From the NCBI RefSeq assembly GCF_001717465.1, contig NZ_CP017074.1, positions 1,082,873 through 1,146,872 of the forward strand: DNA of 64,000 nt, read 5' to 3'. The first letter of the stretch is position 1; each line of letters begins with the position of its first letter. This DNA is from Luteimonas sp. JM171. Its GTDB lineage: Bacteria; Pseudomonadota; Gammaproteobacteria; Xanthomonadales; Xanthomonadaceae. A model generated the notes under the pieces. That model saw only the letters and a list, made by a program, of their open reading frames with translations. It did not search any database and was not told the DNA's origin. The translations under genes were made by a program, and so were the position numbers. This document shows, piece after piece, positions 34,241 to 57,374 of the stretch.

Positions 34241-34822
34241 ATGGAACAGGAAGCGCTTTACCGGGCCGTGATCGGCCGCAACCACGCGTATTACCTCGAG
34301 CGTTTCCGGCGTTTTGACAGCGCGGGCAAGGCGGGCGCCAGCTGGCACTGGCCGGCGTTCTTCATCACCTTCTTCTGGATGCTGTACCGGAAGATGTGGG
34401 GCGTGGCCGCGGCCTACGTGGTGCTGATGCTGGCCTCGTACCTGATCCTGCCCACGGTGGGCATGCTGGCCGGCGGCGTGGGCGGCATGCTGGTCATGTC
34501 GCTCGTGCACCTGGTGGCGGTCATGGTGCTCCCCGCCGTGTTTGCCAACGCGCTGTACTACCGCCATTGCCGCAGCAAAATCGCCGATACCGAGACACTC
34601 GCGCACAACCCGGATGCGCGTGTGCGCGAGCTGGAGCGCCGCGGCGGCACCAGCGAGGTGGCGGCCGCGATCGGCGCGATCGTGACCCTGCTGGTCGGCA
34701 TCGCTTTCATCGCGATGATGGCTGCGATCTCGATTCCGGCCTACCAGGATTACCTGGAGCGCAGCGGCGGCGGGCAGGCCCCGGCTGCCGGCGCCACGGA
34801 GCAGGGCGCGCGGCCCGAATAG
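34241..34822 (+). CDS. DUF2628-like membrane protein with pilin-like helix
   Basis: 193 residues; AAGGAG stands 5 bases before the ATG. Residues about 28-50 (WHWPAFFITFFWMLYRKMW) are the mark of DUF2628-type proteins, followed by two membrane helices (about 52-105). Residues 150-178 form a third helix (LVGIAFIAMMAAISIPAYQD) strikingly like the N-terminal helix of type IV pilins, but placed near the C-terminus and without a prepilin cleavage site. A terminator follows. Function unknown. Confidence 0.7.
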   Translation: MEQEALYRAVIGRNHAYYLERFRRFDSAGKAGASWHWPAFFITFFWMLYRKMWGVAAAYVVLMLASYLILPTVGMLAGGVGGMLVMSLVHLVAVMVLPAVFANALYYRHCRSKIADTETLAHNPDARVRELERRGGTSEVAAAIGAIVTLLVGIAFIAMMAAISIPAYQDYLERSGGGQAPAAGATEQGARPE

Positions 34823-34855
34823 CGGGCCGGCGTCACACTGGGCAACGCCCCCCGG

Positions 34856-34883
34856 CCGGTCGCAGCCCGCGACCGGTACTTTT
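34856..34883 (+). terminator. Terminator after the DUF2628-like gene
   Basis: An 8-bp stem CCGGTCGC / GCGACCGG with loop AGCCC, followed by TACTTTTG. Confidence 0.75.
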
Positions 34884-34944
34884 GTCCTGTGCCCGGCTGC
34901 GGCCGGGCCGGTATGTTGGCGGGATCACCATTCTGGATGCCCGC

Positions 34945-37900
34945 ATGACCCGCAACGTCCTTGCCCTCGCGCTTGCCTGCGCGCTCGCCCCCCTCCCCGT
35001 CCTGGCCCAGGATCCGCCGCCCCCGCCGCAGCCGGTGGAGCAGCAGGAGGGCGACAACGTCGAGTTGGAGCAGGACGCGCTGGACGCGGCCGGCGTGGAA
35101 GAGGCAGACGCGCCGCTGGAATCGGCCCGCGGCCTGCGCGCCGACCCGGACGCTGCCGAGGACAACGGCAAGTGGAGCGTGGAATCCACCCAGGGCCAGG
35201 CCAAGACCGTGCGCTTCGAGACCAGCGAAGGGACCTGGATGGACGTGGACGTGTCGCCAGACGGCCGCACGATCGTGTTCTCGCTGCTGGGCGACCTGTA
35301 CCGGATGCCGGTCAGCGGCGGCGCCGCCACCCGCATCACCAGCGGCCGCGCCTGGGACATCCAGCCGCGCTGGTCGCCGGACGGCCGGCGCATCGCCTTC
35401 ACCTCCGACCGCAGCGGCGGCAACAACATCTGGACCATCGCCGCCGACGGCAGCGATGCGCGCCAGGTGACCGACGAGAGCTTCCGTCTGCTCAACAACC
35501 CCACCTGGACCCCGGACGGCGAGTACATCGTGGCCCGCAAGCACTTCACCTCGCGCCGCTCGCTGGGCGCGGGTGAGCTGTGGCTCTACCACGCCGGTGG
35601 CACCAGCGCCGGCATCCAGCTGGTGGAAAAGCCCAACGAGCAGCAGGACATCGGCGAGCCGAGCGTGTCGCCGGACGGCCGCTACGTGTACTACTCGCAG
35701 GACGTGAGCCCGGGCGGGGCGTTCGATTACAACCGCGACCCGCACGGCGTGATCTATTCCATCAAGCGCTTCGACCGCCACACGGGCAAGATCGAGGACG
35801 TGGTGCGCAGCCCCGGCGGCGCGGTGCGCCCGCAGGTGTCGCCCGACGGCCGTTCGCTGGCCTTCGTCAAGCGTGTGCGCGACAAGAGCGTGCTGCACCA
35901 CATGGACCTGGCCAGCGGCGAGATCCGGCCCGTGTGGGACGGGCTGAGCCACGACCAGCAGGAGGCCTGGGCGATCTTTGGTCCGTACACCGGCTTCAAC
36001 TGGATGCCCGATTCCAGCGCCGTGGTGCTGTGGGCCCAGGGTGGGCTGTGGCGGGTGGACATGGGCAGCGGCGAGGCGACGCAGGTGCCCTTCACCGCCC
36101 AGGTCGAGCAGGTGGTGTCCGAGGCGCTGCATTTCGCCCAGCAGCTGCCGGAGGGCACGTTCAACCCGAAGATGATCCGCGACGTGGCCACATCCGCCGA
36201 CGGCGGCACGCTGGTGTTCCATGCGCTGGGGCAGCTGTGGCGCAAGTCGCTGCCCAACGGCACCCCGCAGCGGCTGACCAGCAGCCGCGGCGTGTACGAA
36301 TATCAGCCGGGCTTCAGCGCCGACGGCCGGCATATGGTCTACACCACCTGGTCGGACGAGGGCATGGGCGCGATCCACGTGCGCGGGGCCAGCGGCTCCA
36401 GCGTGGGCCGCAAGATCACCGAGGAGCCGGGCTTCTACTACCACCCGCGCTTCTCTCCGGACGGGCGCCACGTGGTGTACAGCCGCAGCGGCGGCAGTGG
36501 CCTGACCGGCAGCCTGTGGTCCAACGAGCGCGGCATCTACGTCATTCCGGCTTCCGGCGGCGAGCCGGTGCGTGTGGCCGAATCCGGCCAGTCGCCGCAG
36601 TTCAACCACGACGGCACCCGGGTGCTGTACCTGGCCGGCGGCGGCATGGAGAAGAAGCTGATGTCGGTGGGCCTCAATGGCGAGGACCCGCGCGAGGTGT
36701 TCGACCTCAAGTACGTGGACTCGGTGCAGATCAGCCCGGACGGCAAGTGGGTGGCGTTCACCGAGCTGTTCCACGCCTACGTGGCGCCGATGCCCGAGGC
36801 CGGGCGCACCATCACCCTGGACCGCGAGACGCGCGCGCTGCCGGTGCGCCAGGTCAGTGCCGACGTGGGCAGCTACCTGCACTGGGCGGCCGATTCCAAC
36901 TCGGTGCACTGGCTGGTGGGCGACCGCTACCACTCGCGCCGGCTGGACCAGACCTTTGCGTTCCTGCCGGGCGCGCCGGCCGAGATCGCCGAGCCCGCGC
37001 CGGGCGGCGGCATCCCGGTCGGGCTCGAGGCGCCGGTGTATGCGCCGGATGAGGTGGTGGCGTTCACCAACGCGCGCATCGTGACCATGCGCGATGCGGA
37101 GAACGGCCAGGAAGTGATCGAGAACGGCACCATCGTGCTCAACGGCAATACCATCGCGGCGGTGGGCGCGGCCGGCGAGGTGCAGGTGCCGGCCGGCGCG
37201 AACGTGATCGACGCCAGCGGCAAGACCATCGTGCCGGGCATGATCGACGTGCACGCCCACGCCTCCAACTTCGGCTCCGGCGTGGTGCCGCAGCAGAACT
37301 GGGCGTACTACGCCAACCTCGCCTTCGGCATCACCACCCTGCACGATCCGTCGGCGACGACGGAGTTCGTGTTCTCGCAGTCCGAACTGCTGCAGGCCGG
37401 GCGCATGGTGGGCCCGCGCATGTTCTCCACCGGCACCATCCTGTACGGCGCCGATGGCGGCTTCAAGGCCGAGATCGACTCGCTCGACGACGCCCGCAGC
37501 CACCTGCGCCGGATGCAGGCCAACGGGGCGTTCTCGGTGAAGAGCTACAACCAGCCGCGCCGCGACCAGCGCCAGCAGGTCAACCAGGCCGCGCGCGAGC
37601 TGGGCATGCTGGTGGTGGAGGAAGGCGGCTCCACGTTCCACCACAACATGACCATGATCCTGGACGGCGCCACCGGCATCGAGCACAACCTGCCGATCGC
37701 CCCGCTGTACGACGACGTGGTGAACCTGTGGAAGGAAACCGACGTGCGCAACACGCCGACGCTGGTGGTGAGCTACGGCGGGCTGTCTGGCGAGTACTGG
37801 TGGTATGCGCGCGACAACGTGTGGGAGGACGCCAAGCTCAACCGCTTCTTCCCGCGCGAGACGCTGGACGCGCGCTCGATCCGCCGCGAGATCGCGCCGG

Positions 37901-38361
37901 ACTGGGACTACAACCACATCCGCATCGCCAAGGCGCTGAAGACGGTGCGCGACCAGGGGGTGAAGGTGCAGGTGGGCGGCCACGGCCAGCTGCAGGGCCT
38001 GGCCACGCATTGGGAGATCTGGATGCTGACGCAGGGCGGTTTCAGCAATTTCGAGGCGCTGCGGGCGGCGACGATCGATGGGGCCGATTACATTGGTTTC
38101 GGGTCGCAGCTGGGGTCGCTGGAAGTGGGCAAGCGTGCGGACCTGGTGGTGCTGGATGGCAATCCGCTGGAGAACATCCGGCACACGGCAGACACGCGCT
38201 ATGTGATGGTGGATGGGCGGCTGTTTGATGTGGCGGCGGACATGGCGGAGATCGGGAACCAGGCGGTGCCGGCGCCGACGTTCTACTGGCAGCATCATGG
38301 GCACGGGCAGACGTTCGGGGAGACCTTCGGGCCGACTTCCATGTGTTTCGGGGTGCATTGA
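34945..38361 (+). CDS. Exported amidohydrolase with TolB-type beta-propeller
   Basis: 1138 residues. A signal peptide (1-21, ending VLAQ) and a Pro/Glu-rich linker are followed by TolB/WD40-like propeller blades over about 80-690 (repeated SPDGRxxxFxxxxxG units such as WSPDGRRIAFTSDRSGG) and a C-terminal amidohydrolase TIM barrel (about 700-1120) with metal ligands in PGMIDVHAHASNFG. The family acts in the periplasm or outside the cell, probably on peptides or cyclic amides; the substrate is unknown. A strong terminator follows. Length and domain order are normal for such two-domain proteins. Confidence 0.88.
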   Translation: MTRNVLALALACALAPLPVLAQDPPPPPQPVEQQEGDNVELEQDALDAAGVEEADAPLESARGLRADPDAAEDNGKWSVESTQGQAKTVRFETSEGTWMDVDVSPDGRTIVFSLLGDLYRMPVSGGAATRITSGRAWDIQPRWSPDGRRIAFTSDRSGGNNIWTIAADGSDARQVTDESFRLLNNPTWTPDGEYIVARKHFTSRRSLGAGELWLYHAGGTSAGIQLVEKPNEQQDIGEPSVSPDGRYVYYSQDVSPGGAFDYNRDPHGVIYSIKRFDRHTGKIEDVVRSPGGAVRPQVSPDGRSLAFVKRVRDKSVLHHMDLASGEIRPVWDGLSHDQQEAWAIFGPYTGFNWMPDSSAVVLWAQGGLWRVDMGSGEATQVPFTAQVEQVVSEALHFAQQLPEGTFNPKMIRDVATSADGGTLVFHALGQLWRKSLPNGTPQRLTSSRGVYEYQPGFSADGRHMVYTTWSDEGMGAIHVRGASGSSVGRKITEEPGFYYHPRFSPDGRHVVYSRSGGSGLTGSLWSNERGIYVIPASGGEPVRVAESGQSPQFNHDGTRVLYLAGGGMEKKLMSVGLNGEDPREVFDLKYVDSVQISPDGKWVAFTELFHAYVAPMPEAGRTITLDRETRALPVRQVSADVGSYLHWAADSNSVHWLVGDRYHSRRLDQTFAFLPGAPAEIAEPAPGGGIPVGLEAPVYAPDEVVAFTNARIVTMRDAENGQEVIENGTIVLNGNTIAAVGAAGEVQVPAGANVIDASGKTIVPGMIDVHAHASNFGSGVVPQQNWAYYANLAFGITTLHDPSATTEFVFSQSELLQAGRMVGPRMFSTGTILYGADGGFKAEIDSLDDARSHLRRMQANGAFSVKSYNQPRRDQRQQVNQAARELGMLVVEEGGSTFHHNMTMILDGATGIEHNLPIAPLYDDVVNLWKETDVRNTPTLVVSYGGLSGEYWWYARDNVWEDAKLNRFFPRETLDARSIRREIAPDWDYNHIRIAKALKTVRDQGVKVQVGGHGQLQGLATHWEIWMLTQGGFSNFEALRAATIDGADYIGFGSQLGSLEVGKRADLVVLDGNPLENIRHTADTRYVMVDGRLFDVAADMAEIGNQAVPAPTFYWQHHGHGQTFGETFGPTSMCFGVH

Positions 38362-38375
38362 TCGTTCGGGCGAAC

Positions 38376-38410
38376 AGCCCCGCCGTGCGGTAGCGCGGCG
38401 GGGCTTTTTT
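38376..38410 (+). terminator. Rho-independent terminator of the propeller amidohydrolase
   Basis: A perfect 10-bp stem AGCCCCGCCG / CGGCGGGGCT with a 10-base loop, followed by six T (38405-38410). Confidence 0.92.
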
Positions 38411-38468
38411 GTGCTCGTCACTGGGGGGTGTGACGGTGCTTCGGTTGAGTTCGGCGGTGAACTGAGGG

Positions 38469-38574
38469 GCCCCGCCGCGGCCGGGAGGCCTTTTTGCTCC
38501 ATGTCCCCCGGCCTGCGCTTCGCTACGGCCTCCTCCTTTACTTACGCAAAAAGGCCTCCCGGCCACGGCGGGGC
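38469..38574. repeat. Compound repeat locus 1, hairpin 1 (core in + orientation)
   Basis: In the 419-base gap between convergent genes. Arms of 29 bases (38469-38497 and 38546-38574, 28 of 29 paired; they contain GGCCGGGAGGCCTTTTTGC) enclose a 48-base core at 38498-38545 that begins TCCATGTCCCCCGGCC and ends CCTCCTCCTTTACTTAC. The same core returns inverted at 38658-38705 and twice more at locus 2 (55218-55456). Confidence 0.9.
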
Positions 38575-38634
38575 TCGGCTCCGGAAAGGGGGGGCGTCGC
38601 TTCGCTCGCCATTCTTTTGCTGCGAAGACTGGAG

Positions 38635-38728
38635 CGTTGGGTGGGGGCCCTCCAGTCGTAAGTAAAGGAGGAGGCCGGAGCGCAGCGGAGGCCGGGGGAC
38701 ATGGAGACTGGAGGGCCCCCACCCGACG
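38635..38728. repeat. Compound repeat locus 1, hairpin 2 (core inverted)
   Basis: Arms of 23 bases (38635-38657 and 38706-38728, 22 of 23 paired, inner 17 perfect, ending CCTCCAGTC) enclose the 48-base core in inverted orientation (38658-38705). These arms are unrelated to those of hairpin 1. The 60 bases between the two hairpins differ from locus 2. Nothing else was seen in the gap apart from the terminator at 38376. Confidence 0.9.
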
Positions 38729-38780
38729 CCCCCGCGTCATATCAGGGGTGCTCTTCCCTGATGGGAAAGGGCCTTCTTCG

Positions 38781-39662
38781 CTATTCCACTACGGCCCGGG
38801 TGATTGCAGGAAGGGACTGTCCGGGCCAATCCAGGTCGTTGGCGACCTGGGCGCCTTCGCGCGTGCCTTCCAGGGCGACGATGTCGATGTCGGCGATCGC
38901 CCACTCACTGTTGGATCCGCGGGTGGTGGCGACGATGCCCTTGGGGGGCATGCCGTGGTCCATGGGGGCGTAGATGGCGGCTTCGCCGGTGTTCTCGTCG
39001 AGGGCGGGACTCCAGGGGGCTTCGCCGGCGGTGACGGCCTTGGCGACGAAGAAGCGGTTTTCCAGGGCGCGTGCCAGACAGCCGACCTCCACACGGGTTG
39101 CGCCGGCGGGGGTGTCGGTGCAGCTCGGGACCAGGAGGAGGCGGGCGCCGGCTTCGTACTGGGCGCGTACGGGAAGCGGGAATTCGGCGTCGTAGCAGAC
39201 CGCGATGCCGGCGCGCACGCCGGGCGCGGCTTCGAACACCTTGAGCGCGTCGCCGCCCTCGATGATGCCCAGCTGCTTTTCGAAGCCGGTCAGCTGCAGC
39301 TTGTCCTGGTACACGCGGCGGCCGTCGGGCGCGTACCACCAGGCGCGGTTGCGGAAGCGGCCGTCGCTGGTGGCGGTGAGGAAGGTGCCGGCCTGGATCG
39401 ACAGGCCCAGTTCGCGCGCCAGCCCGGAGAACAGTTCGTGCCAGGCCGGTTCCAACGGCTGCAGCGCGGCCATGGAGGCGGCCAGGTCCAGGCGCTGTTC
39501 CGGGGGCTGGCCGGCGGCGAGTTCCAGCGACAGGTATTCGGGCAGCACGGCGAGCTGGGCGCCCGCCTTGGCGGCTTCGGACAGCAGCGCGCGCTGCCTG
39601 TAGGCGAAGGCGTCGAAGTCCTTCGGCGCGCCGATGAGGTATTTGGCGGCGGCAATCTTCAT
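38781..39662 (-). CDS. Carbon-nitrogen hydrolase (nitrilase superfamily)
   Basis: 293 residues. The catalytic triad of the superfamily is in place: Glu42 (LPEYLS), Lys121 (YQDKLQLT) and Cys156 (AVCYDAEFP). The family hydrolyses amides, nitriles or N-carbamoyl groups in the cytoplasm; the substrate is unknown. It overlaps the acetyltransferase gene upstream by 4 bases (ATGA), so the two, with the NTF2-like gene before them, form a three-gene operon on the minus strand. Confidence 0.9.
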   Translation of the reverse strand: MKIAAAKYLIGAPKDFDAFAYRQRALLSEAAKAGAQLAVLPEYLSLELAAGQPPEQRLDLAASMAALQPLEPAWHELFSGLARELGLSIQAGTFLTATSDGRFRNRAWWYAPDGRRVYQDKLQLTGFEKQLGIIEGGDALKVFEAAPGVRAGIAVCYDAEFPLPVRAQYEAGARLLLVPSCTDTPAGATRVEVGCLARALENRFFVAKAVTAGEAPWSPALDENTGEAAIYAPMDHGMPPKGIVATTRGSNSEWAIADIDIVALEGTREGAQVANDLDWPGQSLPAITRAVVE

Positions 39663-42339: not shown

Positions 42340-42435
42340 TGGCGGAAGGCAACAGGAGTCGAACCTGCCTGGGAGCGGCTGACGCCCCCAACCGGGTTTG
42401 AAGCCCGGCCGCGCCACCGGGCGCGCTTGCCTTCC
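42340..42435 (-). tRNA. selC: tRNA-Sec (anticodon TCA)
   Basis: 96 bases including the encoded CCA (42342-42340). An 8-bp acceptor stem GGAAGGCA / TGCCTTCC with discriminator G, anticodon TCA at 42401-42399 in a CTTCAAA loop, a long variable arm, and the T-arm AGGTTCGACTCCT, which is the same as in E. coli selC. It lies between selB and selD, 34 bases after selB. Confidence 0.96.
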
Positions 42436-48538: not shown

Positions 48539-51500
48539 CTACACCTTTTCCAGGTTGACCAGGAACGCCTTGAACTCCGGCGTCTGGCTGTTGCCGTCGC
48601 CCACGGACACGGTCAGGGTGTTGGTGAGGAAGCCGGGCTTGGCGATGCCGGTCATGCCCCAGTGCAGCGGCACGCCGATCTGGTGCACGGTGCGCCCGTC
48701 TACCTGCAGCGGCCGGATGCGCTTGGTCACCACCGCCACGGCCTCGATGAAGCCGCGCTTGGAGGTCAGCCGCACGCGGTCACCGCGCGCGATCCCCTTC
48801 TCCTCGGCCAGCGCCTCGCCGATCTCCACGAACTGCTCCGGCTGGATGATCGCGTTGAGCGGGACATGCCGGGTCCAGAAGTGGAAGTGCTCGGTCAGGC
48901 GGTAGCTGGTGCCCACGTACGGGAACTCGTCCACCGTGCCCATCGTGGCCAGGTCCGACTCGAACACGCGCGCGGCCGGGTTGGTGGTGGCCACCGGGTT
49001 GTCCGGATGCAGCGGGTTGTAGCCCAGCGGCGTCTCGAACGGCTCGTAGTGCTCGGGGAACGGCCCCTCGTTGAGCCCGGCGCGGGCGAAGAAGCGGGCC
49101 ACGCCTTCCGGGTTCATGATGAACGGGCTCATCCCCTCCTCGGGCGCCGAGTTGACCGCGAAGTCCGGCACGTCCACGCCGGTCCAGCGGTTGCCGTCCC
49201 ACCACACCAGCGGCCGCTCGCGGTTGAACGGCTTGCCCTCCAGGTCCGCGGAGGCGCGGTTGTAGAGGATGCGGCGGTTGGCCGGCCACGCCCAAGCCCA
49301 GCCCTGGGTCTGGCCGATGCCGGTGGGGTCGGCGTTGTCGCGGCGGCCCATCAGGTTGCCGTCCGGGCCCCAGCAGCCGGCGAAGATCCAGCAGCCGCAG
49401 GCGGTGGTGCCGTCATCGCGCAGCTCGCCGAAGCCGGCGATCTGCTCGCCCGCCCGGCGCGTGATGCGGCTGGGATCGGACGGGTCGGCCAGGTCCACCA
49501 GCGCCTTGCCGTTGTACTCCATGGCCAGTTCGGCCGCGGTGGGCACTTCTTTGACGTACGGCCAATGCAGGTTGAGGATCGGGTCGGGATAGGCGCCGCC
49601 CTCCTCCTCGTACATGCGCTTGAGGCGCATGTAGAGCCTGGTCATGATCTCGATGTCGGTGCGCACGCCCTTGGGGGCGTCGGCGCCCTTCCAGTGCCAC
49701 TGCAGCCAGCGCCCGGAGTTCACCAGCGCGCCCTCGCCCTCGGCGAACACGGTGGTGGGCAGGCGGAACACCTCGGTCTGGATCTGCGACGGGTCGACGT
49801 CGTTGGCCGCGCCGAAGTTCTTCCAGAACTCGGAGGTGTCGGTGGGCAGTGGATCGATCACCACCAGGAACTTCAGCTTGGCCAGCGCCGAGTTCATCTT
49901 GGCCTTGTTGGGCGCGGCCGCCAGGGTGTTGAAGCCCTGGCAGATGTAGCCCGTCATCTCGCCCCGGTCCATCAGCTCGTACACCTGCAGCATGTCGTAC
50001 AGGCGGTCGAGCTTGGGCAGGTAGTCGTAGGCCCAGTTGTTCTCCTCGGTGGCGGCGTCGCCGTACCAGCTCTTCATGAGGCTGACGTGGAACTTGGGAT
50101 AGTTCTGCCAGTAGCTCATCTGGCCCGGGCGCAGCGGCTGCAGCGTGCGGGTTTCCAGGTAGTCCTCGTACGCCTGCTCGTGGTCGCTGGGCAGGGTGAG
50201 GTAGCCCGGCAGCAGGTTGCTCATCAATCCAAGGTCCGACAGGCCCTGGATGTTGGAGTGCCCGCGCAGGGCGTTCATGCCGCCGCCGGCCACGCCGATG
50301 TTGCCCAGCAGCAGCTGCAGCATGGCGCCGGCGCGGATGGTCTGTGAGCCCTTGGAGTGCTGGGTCCAGCCCAGCGCGTAACAGATCGTCATCGCCCGGT
50401 CCGGCGTGGCCGTGGACGAGATGATCTCCATGATCTCCAGGAACTGTTCCCTGGGCGTGCCGCAGATGCGCTCCACCATTTCCGGCGTGTAGCGCGAGTA
50501 GTGCTTGCGCATCAGCTGGTACACGCAGCGCGGGTGCTGCATGGTCGGGTCGACGCGGGCGTAGCCGTCCTCGCCGATCTCGTAGTCCCAGGTGGTCTTG
50601 TCGTAGCGGCGCGATTCCGCCTCGTAGCCCGAGAACACGCCGTCGGCGAAGTCGAAGTCCTCGCGCACGATGAAGGGCATGTCCGTGTAGTTGCGGACGT
50701 ACTCGTGCTGGATGCGGTCGTTCTCCATCAGCCAGCTCATCGCCGCGCCGAGGAACACGATGTCCGTGCCCACGCGGATCGGGGCGTAGTAATCGGCCAC
50801 CGATGCGGTGCGGTTGAACCGCGGGTCCACGCAGATCAGCTTGGCGCCGTTGACCGCCTTCGCTTCCGTGACCCACTTGAAGCCGACCGGGTGCGCCTCA
50901 GCCGAGTTGCCACCCATGACCAGCACAACGTCCGCGTTCTTGATGTCGACCCAATGGTTCGTCATCGCTCCACGGCCAAACGTCGGGGCAAGACCTGCCA
51001 CCGTCGGGCCGTGTCAAACGCGTGCCTGGTTGTCGAATGCGACCATCCCCAGTGCGCGGACGATCTTGTGGGTGATGTATCCCGTTTCGTTCGAAGCGGC
51101 CGAGGCGGCCAGGAAGCCGGTGCTGATCCAGCGGTTGACGGTGTTGCCGTCTTCGTCCCGGGCGATGAAGTTGGCGTCGCGGTCGTCCTTCATCAGCCGG
51201 GCGATGCGGTCCAGGGCGTCATCCCAGGAGATCTCCTCCCACTCGTTGGAGCCGGGGCGGCGCACCTGGGGGTGCATGACCCGGGTGGGGCTGTGGATGA
51301 AATCCACCAGGCCCGCGCCCTTGGGGCACAGGGTGCCGCGGCTGACCGGATGGTCGGGATCGCCTTCGATGTGGACGATGCTCGACTTGGCGTTCTTCGC
51401 GCCGTCGCCAAGCCCGTACATCAGCAGGCCGCACGCGACCGAACAGTAGGGACAGGTATTCCTCGTCTCGGTCATGCGCGCCAGTTTGTATTGGCGGACT

Positions 51501-52596: not shown

Positions 52597-53910
52597 ATGC
52601 AGACCTTGAAGACGCAGGATGTCATTGCGCTGGGTTTCATGACCTTCGCGCTGTTCCTCGGGGCAGGCAACATCATCTTCCCGCCCATGGTCGGGCTGAT
52701 GTCGGGTGACAACCTGGGCTGGGCGGCGCTGGGGTTCCTGCTCACCGGCGTGGGTCTGCCGCTGCTGGCCATCGTCACCCTCGCCCGGGTCGGCGGCGGC
52801 CTGGACCTGCTGACGTCGCCGATCGGCCGGGTCGCCGGCACCGCGTTCGGCGTGGTGATCTACCTCACCATCGGGCCGCTGTTCGCCACCCCGCGTACGG
52901 CGACGGTCTCGTTCGAGATGGGATTCGCCCCGTTCATCGGCGACGGCAGCGCGCAGCTGTTCGGTTATTCGGTCATCTATTTCGCGGTTGCGATCCTGAT
53001 CGCGCTGTTCCCCGGCCGGCTGATCGACAACGTGGGCAAGGTGCTCACGCCGCTGCTGCTGCTGGCCCTGCTCGTGCTGGGCGCGGCGGCCGTGTTCAAC
53101 CCGGCGGGCAGCGCGGGGGTGTTTGCCGACACCTACCGCGAGGCGCCCCTGTCGCAGGGCTTCATCCAGGGCTACCTGACCATGGACGCGCTGGCCGGCC
53201 TGGTGTTCGGCGTGGTCATCGTGAGCTCGATCCGGGCCAGGGGCGTGGACAGCGGGCGCATGATCACCCGCTACACCATCGCTGCGGCGCTGATCGCCGC
53301 GCTGTGCCTGTCGCTGGTGTACCTGTCGCTGATGTGGCTGGGATCCACCAGCGGCGTCGTGGCGCCGAACGCTGAAACCGGCGTCGCGCTGCTCACCGGC
53401 TATGCGCACCATGCGTTCGGACCGGTCGGCGGCCTGTTGCTCGGGGCCGTGATCACCCTGGCCTGCCTGACCACGGCGGTGGGGCTGCTGACCGCGCTGG
53501 GCGTCTATTTCAGCCGCCTGCTGCCGGTGTCCTACCGCACGGTGGTGATCGTGATGGGGCTGTTCTCGATGGCGGTGGCCAACCAGGGCCTGGCCCAGCT
53601 GATCGCGTTCTCGGTGCCGATCCTGGTGGGGCTGTATCCGATCGCCATCACCCTGATGCTGCTGGGCCTGGCCTGGCGCCTGTGGCGCTGGCCGCGGCGG
53701 GTGTTCGTGCCGGCGATGGCGGTGGCCACCGTGTTCGGGGTGATCGACGGGCTGATCGCCGCCGGGTTCGAGGCGTCGATCCCCGGTTGGCTGCAGCTGC
53801 TGCCGGGCTCCTCGGCCGGCCTGGGCTGGACGCTGCCGGTGGCCATCGTGGTCCTGGTTGCCGCAATTGTTGACCGTGCCCTGCCGGTGCCCGCCCCCCG
53901 GGCCGCCTGA
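52597..53910 (+). CDS. brnQ: Branched-chain amino acid transporter BrnQ
   Basis: 437 residues, twelve membrane helices. A sodium-coupled importer of Leu, Ile and Val of the LIVCS family (start [20 protein letters not shown], later [15 protein letters not shown]). A GGGGGA site precedes the ATG. It ends 25 bases before sstT, so the two transporters form one operon. Confidence 0.94.
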
Positions 53911-53935
53911 CCCGCTCCCACACAAGGTTTTTCCC

Positions 53936-55156
53936 ATGGCCCTGCCCGAGTTCCTGCGCCGCCCCAGCCTGGTCACCCAGATCGTCATCGCGCTGCTGCT
54001 GGGCACGCTGGTGGGGGTGGCGTGGCCGGCGGCCGGCCGCTCTGTCGAGTTGCTGGGCACCGCGTTCGTCGAAGCGCTCAAGGCCGTGGCGCCGGTGCTG
54101 GTGCTGGTGCTGGTGGCCGCGGCCATCGCCGGCCACCGCGGCGGCGGAGGCACCCACATGCGCCCGGTGCTGCTGCTGTATGCCATCGGCACGGTGGGGG
54201 CGGCCCTGATCGCGGTGACCGCCTCGTTCCTGTTCCCGACCACGCTGGTGCTCAACGTGGATCCGGACGTGCCGATGTCGCCGCCGGGCGGGATCGGCGA
54301 AGTGCTGCGCAGCGTGGCGCTGCAGGTGTTCGACAACCCGGCGCGGGCCATGGCCAACGCCAACTACATCGGCCTGCTGGCCTGGGGCGTGGCCCTGGGG
54401 CTGGCGCTGCGCCGCGCGGGCGAAGGCATCCGGGCCGGCCTGGCGGACCTGGCCGAGGCGGTGAGCACGGTGGTGCGATGGGTGATCCGGCTGGCACCAG
54501 TGGGGATCTTCGGGATCGTGGCCTCGACCCTGGCCACGGCGGGCCTTGGGGTGCTGCTCGACTATGCGCACCTGCTGGCGGTGCTGCTGGGGTCGATGCT
54601 GGCGGTGGCGCTGGTGCTCAATCCGCTGATCGTCTTTGCGGTGACGCGGCGCAATCCGTTCCCGCTGGTGTTCAGGTGCCTGCGCGAAAGCGGGATCACG
54701 GCGTTCTTCATGCGTTCCTCGGCGGCGAACATCCCGGTCAACCTGGCGTTGGCGAAGCGGATGGGGCTGCACCAGGCGACGGCGTCGGTGGCGATCCCGC
54801 TGGGGGCGGCGATCAACATGGCCGGGGCGGCGGTGACGATCACGGTGCTGACGCTGGCGGCGGTGCACACGCTGGGCATTCCGGTGGACATGCCGACGGC
54901 GCTGCTGCTGAGCGTGGTGGCGGCGGTGGGGGCGTGCGGGGCGTCGGGGGTGCCGGGAGGCTCGCTGCTGCTGATCCCGCTGGCGTGCGGGCTGTTCGGG
55001 ATCGATGCGGATATCGCGATGCAGGTGGTGGCGGTCGGGTTCGTGGTGGGCGTGGTGCAGGATTCGGCGGAGACGGCGCTGAATTCGTCGACGGACGTGG
55101 TGTTCACTGCGGCGGTGTGCCGGCGGATGGAGCAGAAGGAGGCTGCTGCTTCCTGA
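53936..55156 (+). CDS. sstT: Sodium:serine/threonine symporter SstT
   Basis: 406 residues (E. coli SstT 414). Dicarboxylate/amino acid:cation symporter family: eight helices and two hairpins with [20 protein letters not shown] (the serine-rich loop), [20 protein letters not shown] and [19 protein letters not shown], which match SstT rather than GltP. It imports Ser and Thr with sodium. Downstream is the second compound repeat. Confidence 0.9.
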
Positions 55157-55217: not shown

Positions 55218-55323
55218 GCCCCGCCGCGGCCGGGAGGCCTTTTTGCTCCATGTCCCCCGGCCTCCGCTGCGCTGCGGCCTCCTCCTTTACTTACGCAAAA
55301 TGGCCTCCCGGCCACGGCGGGGC
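55218..55323. repeat. Compound repeat locus 2, hairpin 1 (core in + orientation)
   Basis: In the 364-base gap between convergent sstT and the DUF885 gene. Arms 55218-55246 and 55295-55323 (27 of 29 paired) are the same as those of locus 1 apart from one base. The 48-base core is at 55247-55294. Confidence 0.9.
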
Positions 55324-55358
55324 TTGGCTTGCGGAAAGTGAGTGTGGGGACGCCTGGA

Positions 55359-55456
55359 GCACCGGGTGGGGTGCCCTCCAGTCGTAAGTAAAGGAGGAGG
55401 CCGGCGCGCAGCGCAGGCCGGGGGACATGGAGACTGGAGGGCACCCCACCCGGTGC
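55359..55456. repeat. Compound repeat locus 2, hairpin 2 (core inverted)
   Basis: Arms of 25 bases (55359-55383 and 55432-55456), perfectly paired, enclose the inverted 48-base core (55384-55431). The outer part of the arms reads GCACCGGGTGGGGTGCCC here but CGTTGGGTGGGGGCCC at locus 1; both arms have changed together. No other feature is seen in the gap. Confidence 0.9.
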
Positions 55457-55520
55457 CCCCGCGTCCCATCAACGCCCTTGTCGGGGAGGGGCAGCCTCCC
55501 CGATTCAAGGTGAGCCGTGG

Positions 55521-57374
55521 TCAGGCCTTCTGGGATTCGATCCAGGTATCGATGCGCTTCTCGAGCAGGTCCAGAGGCATGGCGCCGCCGCCGAGGATGG
55601 TGTCGTGGAAGGCGCGGATGTCGAAGGCGTCGCCGAGCTCGGCTTCGGCTTTGCGGCGCAGTTCCTGCATCTTGATCATGCCCACCTTATAGGCGGTGGC
55701 CTGGCCGGGCATGATCAGGTAGCGGCGGATCTCCGAGCGCACGGTGGTTTCGGGGATCGAGCTGTTGGCCATGAAGTAGTCGACGGCCTCCTGCTCGGTC
55801 CAGCCCTTGGCGTGCATGCCGGTGTCCACTACCAGGCGGATGGCGCGCCACATTTCCGACATCAGGCGGCCGTACTCGGAGTACGGGTCCTGGTAGGTGT
55901 CGGGCATCTCCTTGGCCAGCCACTCGGAGTACAGGCCCCAGCCTTCGGTGTAGGCGGTGGTGAACTGCTGGGTGCGGAAGGTGGGGACGTCCTCGAGCTC
56001 CTGGGCGATGGAGATCTGCATGTGGTGGCCGGGCAGGCCCTCGTGGTAGGCGATCACCTCCAGCTCGGTCCTGGGCATGGCGTCCATGTCCGAGAGGTGG
56101 GCGTAGTAGATGCCCGGGCGCGAGCCGTCGGGGGTGGCGGGATAGTAGTGCTGGGCGGCGCCGTCCTGCTCGCGGAAGGCTTCCACGCGGCGCACTTCCA
56201 GGTCCGCCTTGGGCAGGCGGCCGAAGTAGTCGGGCAGGTGCTGTTCGATGTTGTCGATCGCGGCGGTGGCGTCGTCGATGTAGGCCTGGCGGCCTTCGTC
56301 GGTGTTGGGATAGCGGAACTGCGGGTCGGTGTTGATGAACTCGAAGAAGGCCTGCAGGTCGCCCTCGAAGCCGACCTGGTCCATCACCGCCTCCATCTCG
56401 CCGCGCAGGCGCGCCACTTCGTCCAGGCCGAGCTGGTGGATCTCGTCGGCGGTCATGTCGGTGGTGGTGTTTTCGCGCAGCTGCCAGGCGTAGTAGTCGC
56501 TGCCGCCCGGGTGGGTGGTGCCGACCCCGGCGGGGTTCTCCAGGGCGTGGGGAAGCTCGGATTCGGCCCAGGCGATGATGCGCTCGTACACCGGGAGCAC
56601 GTGGCCGGTGAGGGCGTCGCGGGCCTGCTGCTTGAGTTCGTCGGCGCGCTCCTGGCTGATTTCGCCGGTTTCCACCAGGGCGTCGGCCTTGGCCTGCAGG
56701 TCGGCCCACAGCGGGCTCGCGCTGCCGTCCTGGAACGGGGCGCCGGTGATGATGTTGCGCGACTGCTCGATCACCCCTTCGTAGGCAAAGCGCGGGGCGC
56801 GGATGCCCAGTTCGGCCGACTGGCGGCCGTACTCGAGCAGCTGGTCAAGCACGGTGTCGAACGCTTCCAGCCGCGAGACGTAGGCGAGGTAGTCCTGCTC
56901 GTTGTCGACCTTGTGGAAGTTGATCATGAACATCGGCAGCACGCTGTTCATGCCGTTCATCTGGTCGAAGGCGTAGCGGTGGGCGCGGAATTCCCACTGC
57001 GCCTGCGCGCTGTCGAGCTGGCGCTTCCAGATTTCCCAGGAGAGCTGGGCGTCGGGGTCCAGGCTGTCGTAATCGAAGCCGGACTCCATCTCCGCCACCG
57101 AGTCCGCCAGCCAGTCCAGGCGCTCGCGCATGGCCGCCTCGGACATGTCGTCGAGTTCGTCATAGCGGTCCTTGCGCCCTTGGAAGGTCAGGGTGGTGGG
57201 ACTGAACTGGAGGAATTCCTCGTACTGTTCGTCGAACCAGGCGTTCAGGCGCGCGGATTGATCCTCGGCCTGCCGGGTGGCGGCGGCCGGCGTGGCCGCG
57301 CCCTCGGGCTGCGGGGAACAGGCGGCCAGGGCCAGGGCGATGGCCAGCGTGCTGGCAGCAAGGGGCAGGCGCAT
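55521..57374 (-). CDS. DUF885 lipoprotein, probable metallopeptidase
   Basis: 617 residues. A lipoprotein signal (ALALAAC, Cys19) leads into the DUF885 body with a zinc motif in VIAYHEGLPGHHMQIS (HExxxGHH) and a later YTEGWGLYSEWL. Proteins of this kind are thought to be peptidases of the cell envelope, with length 550-620. No cofactor or substrate can be named. Upstream is a divergent membrane-protein gene. Confidence 0.88.
   Translation of the reverse strand: MRLPLAASTLAIALALAACSPQPEGAATPAAATRQAEDQSARLNAWFDEQYEEFLQFSPTTLTFQGRKDRYDELDDMSEAAMRERLDWLADSVAEMESGFDYDSLDPDAQLSWEIWKRQLDSAQAQWEFRAHRYAFDQMNGMNSVLPMFMINFHKVDNEQDYLAYVSRLEAFDTVLDQLLEYGRQSAELGIRAPRFAYEGVIEQSRNIITGAPFQDGSASPLWADLQAKADALVETGEISQERADELKQQARDALTGHVLPVYERIIAWAESELPHALENPAGVGTTHPGGSDYYAWQLRENTTTDMTADEIHQLGLDEVARLRGEMEAVMDQVGFEGDLQAFFEFINTDPQFRYPNTDEGRQAYIDDATAAIDNIEQHLPDYFGRLPKADLEVRRVEAFREQDGAAQHYYPATPDGSRPGIYYAHLSDMDAMPRTELEVIAYHEGLPGHHMQISIAQELEDVPTFRTQQFTTAYTEGWGLYSEWLAKEMPDTYQDPYSEYGRLMSEMWRAIRLVVDTGMHAKGWTEQEAVDYFMANSSIPETTVRSEIRRYLIMPGQATAYKVGMIKMQELRRKAEAELGDAFDIRAFHDTILGGGAMPLDLLEKRIDTWIESQKA

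Follow-up and report, generated by a model that had tools for sequence, protein, structure and literature searches.

A dispersed, probably REPIN-like family of paired hairpins with a covarying internal loop in distant proteobacterial groups

Two odd compound hairpin elements in a stretch of 64,000 nt from Luteimonas sp. JM171 (the whole analysed stretch, termed the window below) belong to a repeat family that spans distant proteobacterial groups. We regard this family, with a probability of roughly 0.55, as a dispersed, non-autonomous, REPIN-like palindromic doublet that is recognised through its loop. Our preference for a REPIN-like mode of action is based on the doublet build, the inverted order of the two hairpins, their intergenic dispersal and the selection acting on a folded strand. 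The target of this selection is a folded internal loop with measurable covariation, whereas in tagged REPs it is the ends.

Each compound element is made of two long hairpins, A and B, placed head to head with their purine strands directed outwards (Table 1), and the two elements of the window are similar to each other along their full length. The four 48-base cores of the preliminary description were recovered at the same coordinates and on the same strands (38498-38545 in A1 and 55247-55294 in A2; inverted, 38658-38705 in B1 and 55384-55431 in B2). One 19-base end of the core, searched at up to 3 mismatches, was matched 4 times in the window and 0 times in 100 shuffles. The inverted arms said to bound every core directly are likewise present, over 27-29 nt and with 93-97% identity. 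The core keeps its described length and position but is not a single unit: two near-invariant half-motifs flank a copy-variable apical stem-loop of 21 nt, and the purine strand reads GTAAGTAAAGGAGGA, apical stem-loop, GGGGGACATGGA. Similarly, the arms of the two hairpins are unrelated to each other, as had been noticed, but each belongs to a fixed arm family, A or B, with further members across the genome; in a consensus read by eye, the outer ends of A and B have only TGAnnnGACG in common. Each hairpin of 102-106 nt is composed of a 27-29-pair outer stem, an internal loop of two conserved purine strands and an apical stem. Both elements are located between convergent genes.

Table 1. Positions in the window of the compound elements, their parts and the neighbouring genes.
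Feature	Position	Strand	Remark
Compound element 1 (A hairpin, spacer, B hairpin and conserved outer flanks)	38452..38744	.	limits from the end consensus of the copies in the own genome
Hairpin A1	38469..38574	-	purine-loop strand is minus
Arms of A1	38469-38497/38546-38574		29 nt, 97%
A1 internal loop, 5' half, GTAAGTAAAGGAGGA	38531..38545	-	
A1 variable apical stem-loop	38510..38530	-	apical stems covary in relatives
A1 internal loop, 3' half, GGGGGACATGGA	38498..38509	-	
Hairpin B1	38631..38732	+	purine-loop strand is plus
Arms of B1	38631-38657/38706-38732		27 nt, 93%
B1 internal loop, 5' half	38658..38672	+	
B1 variable apical stem-loop	38673..38693	+	
B1 internal loop, 3' half	38694..38705	+	
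Hairpin A2	55218..55323	-	
Arms of A2	55218-55246/55295-55323		29 nt, 93%
Hairpin B2	55356..55459	+	
Arms of B2	55356-55383/55432-55459		28 nt, 96%
Gene left of element 1, PD40 beta-propeller and amidohydrolase	34567..38361	+	3' end towards A1
13-pair terminator-like hairpin of the PD40/amidohydrolase gene	38376..38405	+	upstream of element 1
Gene right of element 1, carbon-nitrogen hydrolase	38781..39662	-	convergent
Gene left of element 2, sodium:dicarboxylate symporter family (SDF)	53858..55156	+	
Gene right of element 2, DUF885	55521..57374	-	convergent

When the JM171 genome was searched with the 19-base half-motif, allowing up to 3 mismatches, 53 hairpin places were found and the reversed control gave 0. 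These hairpins form 36 loci, namely 17 A+B pairs and 19 singles, every single being of the A type, and in 17 of 17 pairs the minus-strand core comes first. Gene prediction with a simple finder, for which the window served as training data, placed no gene across any of the 36 loci. The idea that the genome holds only two copies is set aside by this count, and 53 hairpins at 36 loci with differing flanks therefore rule out a plain segmental duplication. A vertically inherited relic, with noise from assembly or duplication that leaves one segment at two places, would be in keeping with the likeness of the window elements over their whole length, but is scarcely credible against 36 loci with different flanks and hundreds of hairpins in other genomes. 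The pairs of the JM171 genome lie between convergent genes in 6 cases, between genes of the same direction in 7 and between divergent genes in 2 (2 unassigned); for singles the numbers are 4, 10 and 3 (2 unassigned). Of the A hairpins for which this could be determined, 25 of 34 have their outer side towards the 3' end of a gene (p 0.009), as do 9 of 17 B hairpins. One copy, at 1601889, has no right outer arm, and a core-less B-type arm at 103475-103518, near the A single at 103319, suggests that this single has lost its B partner.

Upon RNA folding, the purine strand of hairpin 1 reached -78.1 kcal/mol (z -8.35) and that of hairpin 2 -69.6 kcal/mol (z -7.92), with 0 shuffles as good in either case. 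In an alignment of 51 hairpins, both sides had changed in at least one sequence for 21 of 22 stem pairs (15.0 in shuffles, 0 of 500 equal), and 89.9% of cells were paired, compared to 64.3% in shuffled and 25.6-41.1% in slid alignments. Within the internal loop, positions 1/10' formed a standard pair in only 6 of these 51 hairpins and were mostly A.G. Loop contacts were followed further in 157 unique hairpins, a set filtered by motif resemblance in which related copies are included. Positions 2/9' were Watson-Crick in 157 of 157 (A-T 150, G-C 5, C-G 2); positions 10/3' were A.G in 152, G.A in 4 and A.A in 1, with two further swaps in stretch L304; positions 1/10' were A.G in 140, A-T in 15 and G-C in 2. 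Positions 3 and 10' change jointly: both are G in 139 hairpins, A is combined with T in 14, and each of four further combinations occurs once. The three contacts thus covary as the stems do, which favours recognition of the folded strand.

The stems change freely while the internal loop is kept almost letter for letter, and this suggests that the loop is recognised by something. In several Burkholderiales genomes, the stems differ among the copies of one genome and the loop is fixed. The conserved signal is carried by the loop and not by the ends: CGTC follows the stem in the A and B consensus of the JM171 genome and is absent from the A hairpins of genome G013 and from several B copies of G694. 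A fixed loop with differing stems would also fit a long-term function, which is a counterpoint to the mobile reading. One copy (L050:1303-1388) has no apical stem, its half-motifs being directly joined. G is invariant in the loop at positions 8, 12, 1', 2' and 5' (157 of 157) and nearly so at 9, 11 and 4' (156 of 157). Tentatively, these dispersed hairpins of Gamma- and Betaproteobacteria may represent a third super-family, one of non-RAYT type, in which the recognition signal would be an internal loop that is compact and non-canonical, in place of a terminal tag. Its eight near-invariant G's are arranged as GG-A-GG opposite GG-G-GG, where the central A and G swap jointly. They would build a two-tetrad quadruplex or a purine-purine helix that lies between the stems, beside tandem G.A pairs that switch jointly to Watson-Crick, and the loop would be read by a new enzyme or an RNA-binding protein. 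We consider this proposal possible though doubtful.

The strand that folds can be told from wobble pairs. A single change in a G-C pair gives G.T on one strand and A.C on the other equally easily, and therefore their ratio reveals the folding strand. On the purine strand, distinct wobble events amounted to 84 G.T and 22 A.C in the outer stem (p 1e-9) and to 35 and 15 in the apical stem (p 0.007), p-values that are optimistic because related copies were grouped only roughly. The excess of G.T over A.C (84:22) thus identifies the purine strand as the folded strand. In a plain duplex, neither this excess nor the compensating stem changes would be of any use, and the element is missing from most relatives; a site that acts as double-stranded DNA, bound for example by a nucleoid, gyrase-like or chromosome-organising protein and maintained for its chromosomal place, is for these reasons improbable. 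The positions of the copies would speak for such a site: 24 of the 36 loci lie within one third of the chromosome, at 1.12-2.12 Mb, as matched by 12 of 5000 random sets, but this statistic is post hoc, picked after the positions were known, and a Kolmogorov-Smirnov comparison with a uniform distribution gave p 0.16.

Tolerance of G.T fits RNA as well as it fits single-stranded DNA, which is a counterpoint to the DNA reading. As a structured RNA element, the purine hairpin would act in neighbouring transcripts, for instance as a protein-binding, stabilising or processing site, and the pair build would supply one purine hairpin per transcript in either direction. The G.T excess on the purine strand, the stem covariation and the RNA-like loop contacts are consistent with this role, as are copies within operons (urtB-urtC, glgB-glgX, yqeY-dnaG, a carboxyltransferase-biotin carboxylase pair and, on a Burkholderia anthina plasmid, an aromatic meta-cleavage operon). 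If the Betaproteobacterial repeat element BRE, considered below, is the same family, the 70-80 nt transcripts reported for it on Northern blots (PMC3110155) would be a further point.

Gene context bears on the same question. In Lysobacteraceae, the 37 clusters with both neighbours (a few places being fetched twice) comprise pairs in 11 convergent, 7 same-direction and 1 divergent settings, one convergent triple, and singles in 5 convergent and 12 same-direction settings. In the Paucibacter family, 54 of 71 clusters have a neighbouring gene on either side at no more than 700 nt. Pairs of the usual order number 21 between same-direction and 9 between convergent genes, 8 singles are convergent, and 0 of the 54 clusters lie between divergent genes, as an RNA element would have it. 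Singles show no sense preference, with 2 sense and 8 antisense between same-direction genes of the JM171 genome and 5 and 6 in the Paucibacter family, and this argues against an RNA role. The flanking genes have ordinary housekeeping or transport roles, and no function shared among the neighbours was found. Some sites recur in different genomes, namely those at rpoD and at a LigB-type dioxygenase in G977 and G1038. The Rfam 15 scan gave 12 matches on the element, all sub-threshold and mostly generic miRNA hairpins. Over threshold in the whole window were only SECIS_3 and tRNA-Sec; a selenocysteine tRNA and a SECIS_3 element lie on its minus strand at 42344-42435 and 50961-51019. No sigma-70-like site that could serve as a promoter between the hairpins was found in 38300-38900. 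The terminator role proposed at the outset accords poorly with locus 1, where the upstream gene already has its 13-pair terminator-like site before the element, so that the element stands behind it; a weak 5-pair site of this kind is also present at 38592-38607. An RNA role explains the wobble bias and the operon positions equally well but not the missing sense preference of singles, and we hold it to be a serious but less likely alternative.

The distribution of the family is patchy. A gapped pattern of the two halves was found in 22 of 297 genomes and 5 of 54 genera of the taxonomic family of JM171. In the family of Paucibacter (G696), 112 of 349 genomes carry it, with counts from 1 to 88 (maximum in G982); reversed controls gave 0 in both families. 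Among individual genomes the counts were 78 in G013, 36 in G694, 21 in G603, 18 in G003, 15 in G693, 4 in G696, 2 in G695 and 1 in G697 (reversed control 0), and copy numbers hence swing strongly between genomes. One match lies on the Burkholderia anthina plasmid. The 16-base half-motif with at most 1 mismatch had no match in 36 of 41 relatives. A pattern applied at class level was too narrow, missing even the JM171 genome, and its 1 in 369 is not taken as a prevalence. An exact 19-base scan gave 36 stretches in total, including 19 from Candidatus Luteimonas excrementigallinarum, 12 from the metagenome-assembled genome JAAYXJ and one each from Lysobacter sp. GX 14042, Paucibacter and Pelomonas; in stretches L053 and L065 the second half of the family motif was not seen. 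The 71 clusters of the Paucibacter family comprise 33 pairs in the usual order, 4 in reverse order, 2 quadruplets and 32 singles. All four pairs of G846 (L316, L337, L350, L351) have the plus-strand core first and are the sole such pairs among the 71 clusters.

The preliminary description had offered a mobile repeat family as one possibility, and this fits best, given 53 hairpins at 36 loci, lineage-specific copy numbers and a junction shared with a relative that carries another hairpin there. At this junction, the SDF-DUF885 site of element 2, gene order is the same in G694, with an unrelated hairpin in place of the element. That hairpin is one copy of a second family of like build, in which variable matching arms surround a kept core, GACAAGCAATACATGGATGTATTGCGCGCGC ... 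CGCGCGAAAAGC, seen at L008:1720-1860 and in L160, L169, L048 and L252 (G694:C236:5800-6400). A single long hairpin with GCCCGGCGGGGCATGCCAGTCC-type arms around CGCCATGGACGGCG was also observed (L163:980-1270). In G013, a pair stands behind the DUF885 gene in the opposite order, which is compatible both with shared descent and with its absence.

Movement, if it occurs, would be slow, since 10 of the 12 element-bearing JAAYXJ stretches are at the same places as in the JM171 genome. No insertion, excision, target duplication or clean empty site was seen in the genomes compared, and G694-type contigs, when compared, did not show a clean boundary of insertion; for the JAAYXJ pair of L041, the flanks had no match in the JM171 genome among the 40 of 192 candidates scored. 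Two JAAYXJ hairpins (L031:3310-3412 and L058 near 264) combine one A arm with one B arm, and the JM171 genome has a full pair at these sites; they reflect either an inner deletion or assembly collapse. Y1_Tnp (PF01797) had 0 matches in the JM171 genome (G000, 99.97% complete) and in the copy-rich G013, and was present in 24 of the 41 genomes searched; for this reason a RAYT mechanism is not supported in these two genomes. The 25 commonest families of 62 flanking proteins include no mobile-element family. Phage carriage was rejected, with no phage match and a single stretch in viral contigs, which has an HNH-type gene next to it, and so was plasmid carriage, with one plasmid only.

Under the REPIN-like reading that we prefer, the purine strand of each half would fold, as single-stranded DNA, into outer stem, internal loop and apical stem. 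The folded handle for a protein acting in trans would be the internal loop, in which AAGTMAAGGAGGA faces GGGGGACATG and the A2-T9' pair is accompanied by the A1/G10' and A10/G3' contacts; the stems would merely present it. Copies would be spread by a putative enzyme and persist where they are least harmful, that is between convergent genes, behind genes and between operon genes; those inside operons would be transcribed as stable hairpins. If the loop is the recognition handle, it could be used as bait for the enzyme behind palindromic repeats in RAYT-less genomes, an open question in the REP literature as presented in PMC3733652. If it acts as RNA, it would be a widespread structured element that is absent from Rfam 15.

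The family resembles the REPINs of the REP-RAYT system in its inverted palindromic doublets, its intergenic position, its many copies and the strong differences between genomes (Bertels and Rainey 2011, PMC3116915). It differs in that the units measure about 100 nt and contain a purine internal loop that is conserved, compared with the short REPs described there, and in that G000 and G013 carry no Y1_Tnp gene. REPIN singlets are expected to be more diverged than doublets; here, mean identity to the consensus was 0.897 for singles and 0.878 for paired A hairpins (p 0.24; 38 rows, 2 of them misfiled B hairpins). As neither the transposase nor the decay of singles was found, the family is not filed as REP-RAYT. 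With the GTAG- and CGTC-tagged REPs it has in common palindromes, head-to-head dimers, a location behind genes and G.T pairs (Di Nocera et al. 2013, PMC3733652), but these are described as 20-40 bp long with a tag at one end, whereas here the internal loop is conserved and no tag is retained across genera. In particular, the hairpin length of 102-106 nt and A and B consensus sequences that lack a GTAG foot set it apart from GTAG-tagged REPs, and stems of 27-29 bp, against 8-9 bp, from CGTC-tagged ones; CGTC repeats were left without a transposase in the same account (PMC3733652). Judged by description, the Bor-1 stem-loops of Bordetella are also an intergenic structured family of 93-117 bp with many copies (PMC2267715).

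The closest published candidates are BRE and the Burkholderiales-1 motif, both compared by description only. Our search of the literature on repeats of Lysobacter, Xanthomonadaceae and Comamonadaceae yielded no paper naming the element, the BRE paper being a candidate only, and half-motif strings gave, among the matches listed, at most one half together with its complement. BRE is an intergenic, GC-rich element of about 90 bp, known from Bordetella, Polaromonas, Delftia, Acidovorax and Rhodoferax, where a genome holds several to 29 copies; it is patchy in its sites between species and possibly mobile (Hot et al. 2011, PMC3110155). It is alike in these respects. In contrast, the passages describing BRE contain no inverted doublet, conserved internal loop or occurrence outside Betaproteobacteria, all three of which are present here, and they report tandem arrays and some copies inside coding sequences, neither of which we saw (PMC3110155). 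As an indirect test of identity with BRE, LexA was sought as a neighbour and found in 0 of 10 short neighbours scanned. Burkholderiales-1 is a candidate structured RNA of Burkholderiales, and is alike as a candidate structured element of these hosts; because its published entry gives no Rfam accession (Weinberg et al. 2010, PMC2864571), the Rfam scan was unable to find it. BRE and Burkholderiales-1 could be the same family in Betaproteobacteria; if so, the novelty lies in its spread to Lysobacteraceae, the doublet build and the covarying loop.
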